DNA from: a virus
IMG/VR virus record: IMGVR_UViG_3300047320_000296
Location: 1-22,758 of that record
Reading direction: 5' to 3' (one strand)
Length of the DNA stretch: 22,758 bases
This document shows positions 11,668-21,948 of this stretch, piece by piece. The position numbers and the translations under genes were made by a program. The notes beneath the pieces are model-generated. The model had not been told where the DNA came from, made no database searches, and was given only the letters and a program-made list of their open reading frames with translations. Position 1 is the first letter of the stretch. Each line of letters begins with the position of its first letter.

Positions 11668-11697
11668 AGAGTAGTGACACGGATGTGGTTTGGTCAA
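11668..11697 (-). promoter_or_regulatory. candidate promoter for the packaging/structural operon
   Basis: On the minus strand TTGACC (11692-11697) and TACTCT (11668-11673) are 18 bases apart, a fair match to a sigma-70-type promoter reading toward the HNH and terminase genes. The -35 lies in nested short palindromes (GGTC-N3-GACC and GGAC-N4-GTCC). The 11-base repeat CGTGTCACTAC overlaps the -10 side and recurs 55 bases upstream. Confidence 0.45.
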
Positions 11698-11736
11698 GGA
11701 CCCTTGTCCCGCATGGGATCGGAGGGTAGTGACACG
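11671..11736. repeat. pair of 11-base direct repeats flanking the candidate promoter
   Basis: GTAGTGACACG occurs at 11671-11681 and 11726-11736 on the plus strand. The copies bracket the -35 element at 11692-11697, a layout expected of two operators. Confidence 0.6.
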
Positions 11737-11972
11737 AGCGTGCGTCGCCAGCGTCGCTTCGGGCCTGGCGGTCGGCGCTCGTTGCCGAACAGATCGGCCT
11801 GTACGCGTGGTCTGGATGGGGTGTCCCCACGTCGCCCGGGCGGGGAGGTCAGCCTCGAGGTGGAAGCCGGCGGCCTTGACGCTGGCACCGTCTGGGGTGG
11901 GTCGTTGTGGCGGTGATGGTCGGCGATGAACCGTCGGGCAGCCCGCAACGTGATCGGTCGGCGGACCAGCAA
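11694..11972 (-). pseudogene. decayed XF1762-like (acetyltransferase-like) gene
   Basis: Conserved fragments of one protein appear in two frames. Frame 0 begins VRRPITLRAARRFIADHHRHNDPP, like the N-terminus of XF1762-type proteins common in actinobacteria and their phages. The next frame then reads SVKAAGFHLEADLPARATWG, like the C-terminal third. Frame 0 resumes with DTPSRPRVQADLF and the usual basic end PGPKRRW. About 80 residues normally between the first two parts are missing. The second frame change falls in a G-run (TGGGGAC), consistent with loss of one base. The 92-codon open frame is therefore not an intact gene. The family match is from memory. Confidence 0.65.
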
Positions 11973-11975
11973 ACG

Positions 11976-12266
11976 TCAGCGCCGCAGCGTCGTGTTGCAC
12001 AGTCCGCAGCGGTGCAGACCGAGGGCGGCGTTGACCGTCACCCGCTCCGCCCGGGGATGAGGGCAGGCGCCGCCTGGGGATGGGCTTGCGGGTGGCGGCC
12101 GCAGTGTGGTGGTAGCCGGCCGGGTCGGGTGGGCCTCGGCCGCCGACGGGCTGGCGCAGCGGGCACGGATCCACTCGCTGATGCTCACACCCTCGGCCTT
12201 CGCCGCCTTCCGCCACGTCGCCAGCTCGGCAGGCTCGACCCGGATCGTGAAGCGAGGCGACGGCAT
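11976..12266 (-). CDS. ribbon-helix-helix protein with C-terminal zinc-like motif
   Basis: This protein of 96 residues begins MPSPRFTIRV, with a strand followed by helices (EPAELATWRKAAKAEG, SISEWIRARC), the normal layout of a ribbon-helix-helix DNA-binding domain like those of MobC or CopG relatives (residues 5-38). A Pro-rich linker follows. Residues 67-96 carry C-x-H and C-x2-C (HRCGLC), perhaps a zinc knuckle. The ATG has no Shine-Dalgarno sequence; instead a perfect palindrome stops five bases before it. Autoregulation through those palindromes is an inference. It ends four bases before the decayed gene begins. Confidence 0.7.
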   Translation of the reverse strand: MPSPRFTIRVEPAELATWRKAAKAEGVSISEWIRARCASPSAAEAHPTRPATTTLRPPPASPSPGGACPHPRAERVTVNAALGLHRCGLCNTTLRR

Positions 12267-12270
12267 CAGG

Positions 12271-12299
12271 CTGTCGCGACAGGGCAGATGTCGCGACAG
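12271..12299. promoter_or_regulatory. tandem TGTCGCGACA palindromes, likely operator
   Basis: Two perfect copies of TGTCGCGACA lie at 12272-12281 and 12289-12298, 17 bases centre to centre, directly upstream of the RHH gene start. The first copy extends to CTGTCGCGACAG. They occupy the position of the ribosome binding site and core promoter, so a bound protein would block expression. The RHH product is the obvious candidate binder. Confidence 0.65.
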
Positions 12300-12300
12300 G

Positions 12301-12402
12301 TCACGGCCACGCCCGCCCGGCCAGCCACCTACGCCAGCGGGACAGGCGGAACGCCCGACGTTGATGGCGGCGGATCCGGCGGTCGATGAAGCCGACGATC
12401 AC
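12301..12402 (-). CDS. possible 33-residue Arg-rich small protein
   Basis: A GTG at 12402 overlaps the stop of the upstream gene as GTGA, the coupling used throughout this operon, and opens a 33-codon frame ending at TGA 12301-12303, two bases before the operator palindromes. The product starts MIVGFIDRRIRRHQRR and has about a dozen arginines and four tryptophans or phenylalanines in an amphipathic pattern. It fills the only notable gap in this block. It may be a small nucleic-acid-binding or membrane-active peptide, or just an open frame. There is no recognised family. Confidence 0.4.
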   Translation of the reverse strand: MIVGFIDRRIRRHQRRAFRLSRWRRWLAGRAWP

Positions 12403-12968
12403 GACGCACGCTCCCTGCTCCGCTTCCGCAGCTCGATCACATCAGCCGGCACCGGAGGGGCGGGACGGCCACCGTTCTTGTCCCGCCAACGCTTCCGCCA
12501 CCGGTAACACGGCTCGCATCGTCCCTCCCGCCCCGGCGCCGACGGTTCCTCGCAGAACTGCTCGACACAGTCCGGGCGCCGCGGCCTGCCCTCCGAGTCG
12601 AGGTCCCGGCCCACCACCATCTCCTCCACCTTGAAACCGTCCTCCACCAGACGGGCCACCTCATGGGCCGCGCCGATCGCACGGTCCAACTCGGCCAGAG
12701 CCCGGGTCGCGCAGCCATGCACGAAATCCACCGCCGGGTCACGCTCGCCCGTCTCCCCCCGAGCCAGGGCAGCACCCGAAGTCGGGTCCGACTTCCCCGA
12801 CGCACGGCCACCCAACGTCCCCGGCCCGAACCCGTCCGGCACCGCCAACCGGGCGTCACGCTCCAGCAGGGTCACCAAGCCGCCGCCCGGCTGGATCCGC
12901 TGAGCCAGATCCCGAAGGGTCGCCGCGTACTCCCGGAGCTGATCGTTCGACGGGCCCCGACGCTTCAC
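12399..12968 (-). CDS. hypothetical protein with C-terminal Cys pairs
   Basis: This protein of 189 residues starts at GTG overlapping the MazG-like stop (GTGA); the longer TTG start at 12983 is less likely. Residues 8-45 are helical (QLREYAATLRDLAQRI). Residues 75-125 are helical and acidic. The end is basic with C134-x4-C139 and C151-x2-C154 next to YRWRKRWRDKNGGR, which suggests a zinc-binding nucleic-acid contact region. I do not recognise the family. It belongs to the small-protein tail of the replication operon, between the MazG-like protein and the small Arg-rich ORF. Confidence 0.75.
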   Translation of the reverse strand: MKRRGPSNDQLREYAATLRDLAQRIQPGGGLVTLLERDARLAVPDGFGPGTLGGRASGKSDPTSGAALARGETGERDPAVDFVHGCATRALAELDRAIGAAHEVARLVEDGFKVEEMVVGRDLDSEGRPRRPDCVEQFCEEPSAPGREGRCEPCYRWRKRWRDKNGGRPAPPVPADVIELRKRSRERAS

Positions 12969-13438
12969 GCCGGGTCGGTGCAACCGTGGAGCCGGCAGGT
13001 GCAGCCGTCACCCAGGCACATGCGGTGGAAGCCCTTCGAGCACGGAGCGCAAGTCGACGCCGCTGGGAGCCGCTCGGGGAAGCCCTGCCGCTCCGACACC
13101 CGGTTGAACTTCGACACGAGCGCCGCGGGCAGGTCGATGCCGTAGTGGTCGGCGACCAGCACCAGGTAGCAGACGACATCGGCCAGTTCGTCGCCCAGCT
13201 GGGCCATCAGCTCCTCGACCGGCGGGACCGGCTGACCGAGAGCAGCCAGGCCGGTCTCGTGCCGTCGGATCTTCTTCACGACGTTCGCTGCCTCACCCGC
13301 CTCACCACACATCGCGTTCGACCAGTCCGCCCCCGACCACTGCTCCGCCTCAGGCGGATGCCAGCGGTCACGACGGACCGCGTTCACCCTCACGATCTCG
13401 CTGACCGTCAACGTGCTGGCATCGAAGTCCTCAGGCAT
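12965..13438 (-). CDS. MazG-like nucleotide pyrophosphohydrolase with Cys-rich tail
   Basis: The protein has 157 residues. Residues 38-122 resemble MazG-like all-alpha NTP pyrophosphatases: GEAGEAANVVKK supplies E46-x2-E49, and LGDELADVVCYLV supplies E84-x2-D87, the metal-binding acidic residues. The family cleaves NTPs or dNTPs to monophosphate and pyrophosphate; in phages it may adjust nucleotide pools or interfere with host signalling. Residues 130-153 add C130-x2-C133, H138, C141, C146, C148, H151 and C153, an extra zinc-like cluster not usual for MazG. It overlaps both neighbours (8 and 4 bases). Confidence 0.8.
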   Translation of the reverse strand: MPEDFDASTLTVSEIVRVNAVRRDRWHPPEAEQWSGADWSNAMCGEAGEAANVVKKIRRHETGLAALGQPVPPVEELMAQLGDELADVVCYLVLVADHYGIDLPAALVSKFNRVSERQGFPERLPAASTCAPCSKGFHRMCLGDGCTCRLHGCTDPA

Positions 13439-20668: not shown

Positions 20669-21559
20669 TCAGGCGGCCTCGTGCTCCTCGGCGGTGGTGA
20701 TCATCCGCTCGAGCAGGTCGAGGGCGGAGAGCTGGACGTGGGCGATGGTCGGGGCCAGCGCCTCTCGGGCTGCCTTCCGGCCGACCTCCCGCGCAGCGTC
20801 GATCGACTTCGCCCCGGCGGCCCCGGCGGCCCCGGCGGCCCCGGCGGCCCAGGCGGCCCCGGCGGCCCCGGCGGCCCCGGCGGCCCCGGCGGCCCCGGCG
20901 GCCCCGGCGGCCCCGGCGGCCCCGGCGGCCCCGGCGGCCCCGGCGGCCCCGGCGGCCTCGGCGGCCACGGCGGCCCCGGCGGCCCAGGCGGCCCCGGCGG
21001 CCCCGGCGGCCTCGGCGGCCCCGGCGGCCTCGGCGGCCCCGGCGGCCTTGAACTTCTCGATCGCTTCGACTCGGGCCTTCTCGCGGCGGGTCCAGGCCTC
21101 GTCGTGGATGGCGCGGAGGGTGGACTTGATCGACGGTGTCAGGGCCGAGGACAGAGGTGAGAGGTCCTCCAGCAGGGAGGCTTGGTCTTCCATCCCCGCC
21201 CGTCGGAGCCAGGTGGGGGTCGCGGTGCGGACGAGCCAGTCGGTGGCCATCCAGGCCAGCTGGTTCTCCAGCTCCGGGCCCTTGTTCGTGCCGACACAGC
21301 GGACGAGGTACGGCTTGAGAACCTGGCGGGCGGCTTCGGGCAGACCGTCGTTCCAGCGGCGGGCGAACGCTCCGAGGACGGGGGACATGCACGCCGGGTG
21401 GTCGGTGTGCTCTTCGCCGGCGAGCCAGGCGACGGTCTCGGTGAAGCACATCCCTTCCTCTCGGGACGTGTGGCCGCCGCGCTTCAGCTCGATGCTGTCG
21501 AGCAGGGCCAGGTGGTCTTCGAGGACCGTCACGGTCTTCTCCTTCGGGTTGGTGGTCAT
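20669..21559 (-). CDS. conserved actinobacterial-type protein with Ala-Ala-Xaa repeat tract
   Basis: The protein has about 296 residues; the ATG at 21559 lies six bases after the upstream stop, with only weak ribosome binding signals. Residues 13-115 (SIELKRGGHTSREEGMCF, TETVAWLAGEEHTDHPACMSPVLGAF, DWLVRTATPTWLR) resemble a domain I recall from Streptomyces and actinophage proteins of unknown function. About residues 171-250 are an Ala-Ala-Xaa array where Xaa is Gly, or in a few units Glu, Trp or Val. The last 45 residues are an ordinary helix (ALDLLERMITTAEEHE). The array might form a long helix or fibre-like spacer. Next to the clamp gene, but its function is unknown. Confidence 0.75.
   Translation of the reverse strand: MTTNPKEKTVTVLEDHLALLDSIELKRGGHTSREEGMCFTETVAWLAGEEHTDHPACMSPVLGAFARRWNDGLPEAARQVLKPYLVRCVGTNKGPELENQLAWMATDWLVRTATPTWLRRAGMEDQASLLEDLSPLSSALTPSIKSTLRAIHDEAWTRREKARVEAIEKFKAAGAAEAAGAAEAAGAAGAAWAAGAAVAAEAAGAAGAAGAAGAAGAAGAAGAAGAAGAAGAAGAAWAAGAAGAAGAAGAKSIDAAREVGRKAAREALAPTIAHVQLSALDLLERMITTAEEHEAA
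20813..21046. repeat. 9-base tandem repeat coding Ala-Ala-Gly, about 26 copies
   Basis: The unit is GCCGCCGGG on the minus strand (plus GCGGCCCCG, frame-shifted). Variants change the third codon to Glu, Trp or Val while keeping period nine with no indel. Several adjacent units are identical, pointing to slippage or recombination expansion. Confidence 0.9.
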
Positions 21560-21564
21560 GCCGG

Positions 21565-21948
21565 TCAGACGCCGGCCTTGCGGAGGGCGGAGATGCGTTG
21601 TCGGAGCCGGCCGAGTTCGGCGGGCCAGTCGACCGGTGGGACGTCGAGGGCGCGGGCCTTGGCCCAGAGGACGTCGTAGGCGGCTTGGCCGATGCGGCCG
21701 ATCACCCAGGTCCGCCACGTGTGGAGCTCGAAGTCGTCGTGGCACTCGGGGCAGAGGGCGACGCCGTTGTCTTCGTCGGTGCGGGTGTTGTTGTAGCCAC
21801 GGCGGACGATGTGGGCGGCGGTGAGGCCCAGCACAGGGAGGTGCTCGCTGGAGTAGACGCCTCGGATGCCGCAGGCCTGGCAGGCGCCGTCCCGGGCCCG
21901 GACGACGATCGACCAGGCCTTGTCGGCCTTCTCCTTGGTCGGGTTCAT
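21565..21948 (-). CDS. HNH endonuclease
   Basis: This protein of 127 residues starts at ATG overlapping the preceding stop (ATGA). C23-x2-C26 (CQAC), His46 in LTAAHIVRRG, Asn61 in EDNGVALC, C66-x2-C69 and His70 (CPECH) show an HNH fold with a zinc-binding Cys set. The final 40 residues are a helical, basic tail. The enzyme would nick or cut DNA; in this early block it may aid recombination or DNA processing, or be a selfish homing enzyme. It does not interrupt a neighbouring gene, which argues against recent homing. Confidence 0.8.
   Translation of the reverse strand: MNPTKEKADKAWSIVVRARDGACQACGIRGVYSSEHLPVLGLTAAHIVRRGYNNTRTDEDNGVALCPECHDDFELHTWRTWVIGRIGQAAYDVLWAKARALDVPPVDWPAELGRLRQRISALRKAGV

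Follow-up and report, generated by a model that had tools for sequence, protein, structure and literature searches.

The locus studied here raises the question of whether two palindromes lying directly before a small regulatory gene of a phage are the operator of the protein that it encodes. The sequence is IMG/VR record IMGVR_UViG_3300047320_000296, a partial genome of 22,758 bases and 70.6% GC that was analyzed over its whole length and is called the window below. All nameable phage genes are on the minus strand, in the order DnaB helicase, C5 methylase, MazG-like protein, a 96-residue open reading frame (ORF), HNH, TerS, TerL, portal, capsid, and tail tube. Judging from the composition and from matches to phages of Arthrobacter, Gordonia, and Microbacterium, the host would be GC-rich and probably actinobacterial. 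Upstream of the replication genes, we also found a long Ala-Ala-Gly repeat protein (20669-21745, minus strand) with a weak match to collagen-like tail proteins. Next to the 96-residue ORF, a Mom-like fragment (11694-11972, minus strand, and an overlapping frame) matches phrog_1384 with an E value of 0.008. Its likely C-terminal part (SVKAAGFHLEADLPARATWGH), which we take to be such by its resemblance to the Mom C terminus, runs on in another frame, and the gene is probably degraded.

The palindrome pair and the gene behind it

The 96-residue ORF (11976-12266, minus strand) is preceded by two perfect 10-base palindromes, TGTCGCGACA, which we consider putative operator sites. The proximal copy is at 12272-12281 and the distal one at 12289-12298, 7 bp apart and thus with a period of 17 bp, and five bases separate the proximal copy from the ATG at 12266. 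This is the arrangement that an earlier note on this DNA had described, and a search of the record returned these two exact copies only in the 22,758 bases. Under a first-order Markov model, the window should have 0.045 copies, and pairs within 40 bp should number about 2.7e-6, so the pair is far beyond chance. Exact copies number 3 to 4 in each of three actinobacterial chromosomes of 5 to 9 Mb, which makes TGTCGCGACA a rare word in those three.

The product of the ORF appears to be a regulator of the ribbon-helix-helix (RHH) type. No curated RHH profile matches it above the cut-off, and residues 5 to 37 match two Pfam families below theirs, NikA-like (24.7 bits for a cut-off of 27, E value of 2.6e-5) and RHH_1 (17.3 for a cut-off of 20.5). 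An AF2 model, computed from an alignment of five RHH proteins, places helices at residues 12 to 25 and 29 to 37 after an extended segment, with a pLDDT of about 84 to 88 over residues 11 to 30. The top Foldseek matches of the model are RHH proteins, including Arc, NikA, CopG, and TacA, with E values of 0.3 to 1 that are weak because the RHH domain is short. The features that define the RHH (MetJ/Arc/CopG) superfamily, a beta strand at the N terminus and two helices after it, are thus present in the model, and by this prediction the window protein has the RHH fold. At the sequence level, the nearest matches of the domain, at 46-48% over 31 to 36 residues, are MobC proteins of Aeromonas plasmids, and RelB-type antitoxins match below the cut-off (E value of 3.8e-4). 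The C terminus (11976-12064, minus strand) carries a CPHP...CGLC pair and a small predicted beta hairpin, which suggests a zinc ribbon; this region had no match in phages. Searching phages, IMG/VR, and about 300 genomes from a single phylum for homologs of the RHH protein yielded nothing of use, and an alignment of the RHH proteins of loci L010 and L062 found nothing there either.

The lack of a Shine-Dalgarno (SD) sequence before the ATG, which had also been pointed out, was confirmed. Such a start is not distinctive here: of the 23 assumed starts of the window, 4 have no match of even 3 bases to the SD string, and the same is true of about 15% of random positions. The suggestion of a leaderless gene fared less well. 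We found no promoter- or terminator-like sites between 11100 and 13000 (the promoter scan covered the sigma-70 consensus only), SD-less starts are common in the contig, and the ATG overlaps in TGATG with the stop of a 12-codon GTG ORF (12266-12304, minus strand) that spans both palindromes and offers re-initiation instead. This ORF overlaps in GTGA with a 33-codon GTG ORF (12301-12402, minus strand; no Pfam match), which in turn overlaps, again in GTGA, the stop of the upstream gene at 12399-12983. Given the TGATG, the chained overlaps upstream, and the ordinariness of SD-less starts, re-initiation may be no less likely than a leaderless start.

Recurrence of the word in other viruses

We scanned IMG/VR for pairs of TGTCGCGACA at gaps of 0 to 30, 24 to 54, and 55 to 85, and the resulting counts are lower bounds. 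Clusters of the word adjoin the starts of RHH genes in five further viruses that are otherwise different, with three sites in L282/L010, four in L062, three in L023, two in L086, and, in L286, one before a first RHH gene and two before a second. Leaving aside the N22 and N23 spacing classes treated below, the RHH gene is directly downstream at five loci, of a total of at least about 25 after collapsing by hand. The records of L010, L062, L086, and L286 have every exact copy at the RHH-adjacent place, and that of L023 has three of its four copies there. The RHH assignment passes a Pfam cut-off in L023, L086, and the second L286 gene; it rests on a weak Pfam match for L010, on homology to L010 (35% identity) for L062, and on inspection by eye for the first gene of L286.

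The position of the sites relative to their neighbors varies. The three sites of L282 are flanked by divergent DnaB and RHH genes, and the four of L062 by a winged-helix gene and the RHH gene, which are also divergent. L086 has its sites between two divergent RHH genes, and L286 has three consecutive RHH-type genes, with sites before the first two. Relative to the RHH ORF, the four copies of L062 occupy three reading frames; therefore, the DNA is kept and not the peptide. The RHH proteins have a low sequence similarity to that of the window (15-34%), four of them have in common, as judged by eye, the beta-strand pattern R-x-[AST]-[FI]-R-[VIL], and the same word seems to accompany two classes of beta strand. 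A common spacing rule between sites was looked for across the viruses and not found, so that no fixed cooperative geometry is evident. There was no TGTCGCGACA near the Arc-like genes of the Gordonia phages Periwinkle and Kamaru.

As a control, we used the scrambled palindrome TGACGCGTCA, which has the same composition; its 50 stretches gave no RHH match among 48 neighboring ORFs. Among the TGTCGCGACA loci at gaps of 0 to 30 and outside the N22 and N23 classes, 13 were independent after collapsing by hand. RHH-linked loci amounted to 4 of these 13, versus 0 of 25 for the control (Fisher test, about 0.01, in a comparison that is post hoc and depends on the hand collapsing). Furthermore, there were 15 perfect pairs versus 13 with one imperfect site, although the latter have 15 times more possible sequences, and this excess is an independent sign of selection. 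The control loci also included pairs of TGACGCGTCA with a gap of 26 to 28 bp before small GRPP-containing genes (MRDDKDPGTLEM...RGRPP) in L293, L309, L319, and related loci, which apparently represent a separate operator family.

Thus, as would be expected of an RHH autorepressor, the start of the gene has repeated palindromic sites, which come back in the other viruses. As the same word precedes similar RHH genes in five otherwise different viruses, we think it fairly likely that the RHH protein encoded just downstream has TGTCGCGACA-N7-TGTCGCGACA as its operator, through which it would shut off its own gene. Points that speak against this reading are the low similarity between the RHH proteins, the two apparent beta-strand classes, the variable spacing, the copies of the word that have no RHH gene beside them, and the negative result of the promoter scan of the window. 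Of the earlier proposal of an autorepressed gene, the part concerning the sites gained support from the clusters beside RHH genes and their absence for the control, while the binding itself is predicted. We infer RHH binding, repression, and downstream effects of the following kind. RHH dimers would bind to the major groove of each 10-bp palindrome, in a MetJ-like manner, and the bound protein would repress transcription across its own gene start, being held in this way at a set level. The start itself may be translated by re-initiation at TGATG, not from an SD sequence. Possibly, repression also damps the read-through that reaches the HNH-terminase block from the replication genes.

Other contexts of the word and alternative explanations

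The word alone is not diagnostic, as elsewhere it belongs to coding sequence, to insertion-sequence ends, or to another prophage operator. Most pairs outside the window at gaps of 0 to 30 (97 of 118 among the matches listed) fall in the N22 and N23 classes, which lie in prophages before early genes; no RHH neighbor was seen among the 19 inspected. Two of the N22 pairs precede excisionase-like genes that are 91% identical (L025, 2528-2859, and L298, 1577-1903), one pair made of TGTCGCGACA and the other of TGACGCGTCA, which looks like a swap of operator specificity. Since TGACGCGTCA can take the place of TGTCGCGACA in front of a gene with 91% identity, the prophage pairs are probably served by another regulator. 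In L268 (10309-10781, on a contig of 74% GC), an XRE/Cro-like gene is directly preceded by copies of TGTCGCGAC, one of them exact and several imperfect.

In the scan of genomes, 61 of 114 first pairs among the matches listed had a gap of 1 bp (for example, L154, L157, and L168). The N1 pairs examined encode QIVATLSRQLSWSH-type stretches, presumably of the DUF1016/YhcG family, and therefore a palindrome pair can arise from coding sequence. The N12 and N13 genome pairs (L192, L245, and others) adjoin IS481-like transposase genes or occupy a repeat-like context of such genes, and are possibly the ends of insertion elements. In view of both contexts, raw counts of TGTCGCGACA were left out of the evidence.

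The prophage pairs without an RHH neighbor and the XRE-type gene of L268 are what could be expected if the sites were the operator of a different regulator, a helix-turn-helix repressor of the phage or the host, with the RHH gene as a mere target. The contig is a partial genome, so further regulators may be missing from it. We consider this explanation unlikely, as it leaves unexplained why RHH genes lie beside TGTCGCGACA in five viruses and none beside the control palindrome. An RNA element that limits or processes the translation of the RHH message is highly improbable in our view, although the two palindromes can pair before the start codon as a stem of 10 bp with a loop of 7 nt, and the start lacks an SD sequence. 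The z-score of this fold is a modest -1.98, with 5 of 200 shuffles folding as well; other clusters have three sites (L282 and L023) or a single one (L286, before the first RHH gene), and the sites of L282 and L062 have divergent genes on either side.

Another explanation concerns only the role of the protein, as it is compatible with autorepression. The phage could have acquired its RHH protein as an orphan relaxosome accessory (MobC/NikA) or as an antitoxin, with the sites serving that role and not phage timing. The closest matches are indeed MobC of Aeromonas plasmids and, below the cut-off, NikA-like proteins and RelB-type antitoxins, and the module looks acquired, as nine phages that have the terminase block in common with the window lack the motif. 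We regard it as very unlikely, given that no relaxase or toxin family was seen among the window ORFs scanned with Pfam, a scan that covered part of the small ORFs of a partial record.

The earlier note had also suggested a possible master switch between the early/replication block and the late one, and our results lend it no support. The window has a single cluster, and none of nine loci sharing the HNH-terminase block (L120, L122, L125, L128, L135, L140, L141, L142, and L144) has a copy of TGTCGCGACA; for L120, the whole 36.8-kb record lacks one even with one mismatch. Neither was an RHH-like ORF seen upstream of HNH in these nine loci (by eye, among plus-strand ORFs of at least 45 residues and a GC3 above 0.7). 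Because these loci lack the motif, the unit of RHH gene and operator looks like an accessory module, and with one operator cluster only, wider control could act only through read-through. From their anatomy, the sites of L282 and L062 could control a replication gene besides the RHH gene. A broader proposal, that TGTCGCGACA is an undescribed operator code convergently reused by phage RHH regulators at the replication-gene boundary of unrelated phages and placed here at the replication/late junction to gate the terminase operon, seems to us rather doubtful.

Relation to known systems

The putative autorepressor is of a kind already known, that of Arc, CopG, and MobC, while the proposed pairing of operator and regulator is new. 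In the full text of 5.39 million open papers, TGTCGCGACA turned up in two, neither of which, by its title or abstract, concerns phage regulation, and literature searches revealed no operator of this kind. The word is a candidate operator, open to direct testing, of a group of phage RHH regulators, and, if confirmed, could locate RHH regulators too divergent for homology search, as happened here.

Arc, CopG, and MetJ are RHH repressors of phages and plasmids, among other systems, with palindromic or paired sites, and the MetJ boxes are palindromic. Arc of phage P22 and CopG of pLS1 are structural neighbors of the window model. The candidate system departs from these three in the sequence of TGTCGCGACA, in a site spacing that is variable across viruses, and in the possible zinc-ribbon C terminus. 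The prophage N22 and N23 pairs have the same 10-mer, also paired and before phage early genes, but differ from the window pair in their spacing of 22 to 23 bp, their lower GC content, and the absence of an RHH neighbor among those seen. The MobC protein of plasmid RA3 is an RHH autorepressor that binds a palindromic operator at its own promoter, a single imperfect palindrome between -35 and -10, and it also stimulates conjugation (PMC4175270). The window protein resembles it in having palindromic sites at its own gene and in its predicted autorepression, whereas it differs from RA3 MobC in its two exact 10-mers, its phage context, and the lack of a relaxase family among the ORFs scanned.
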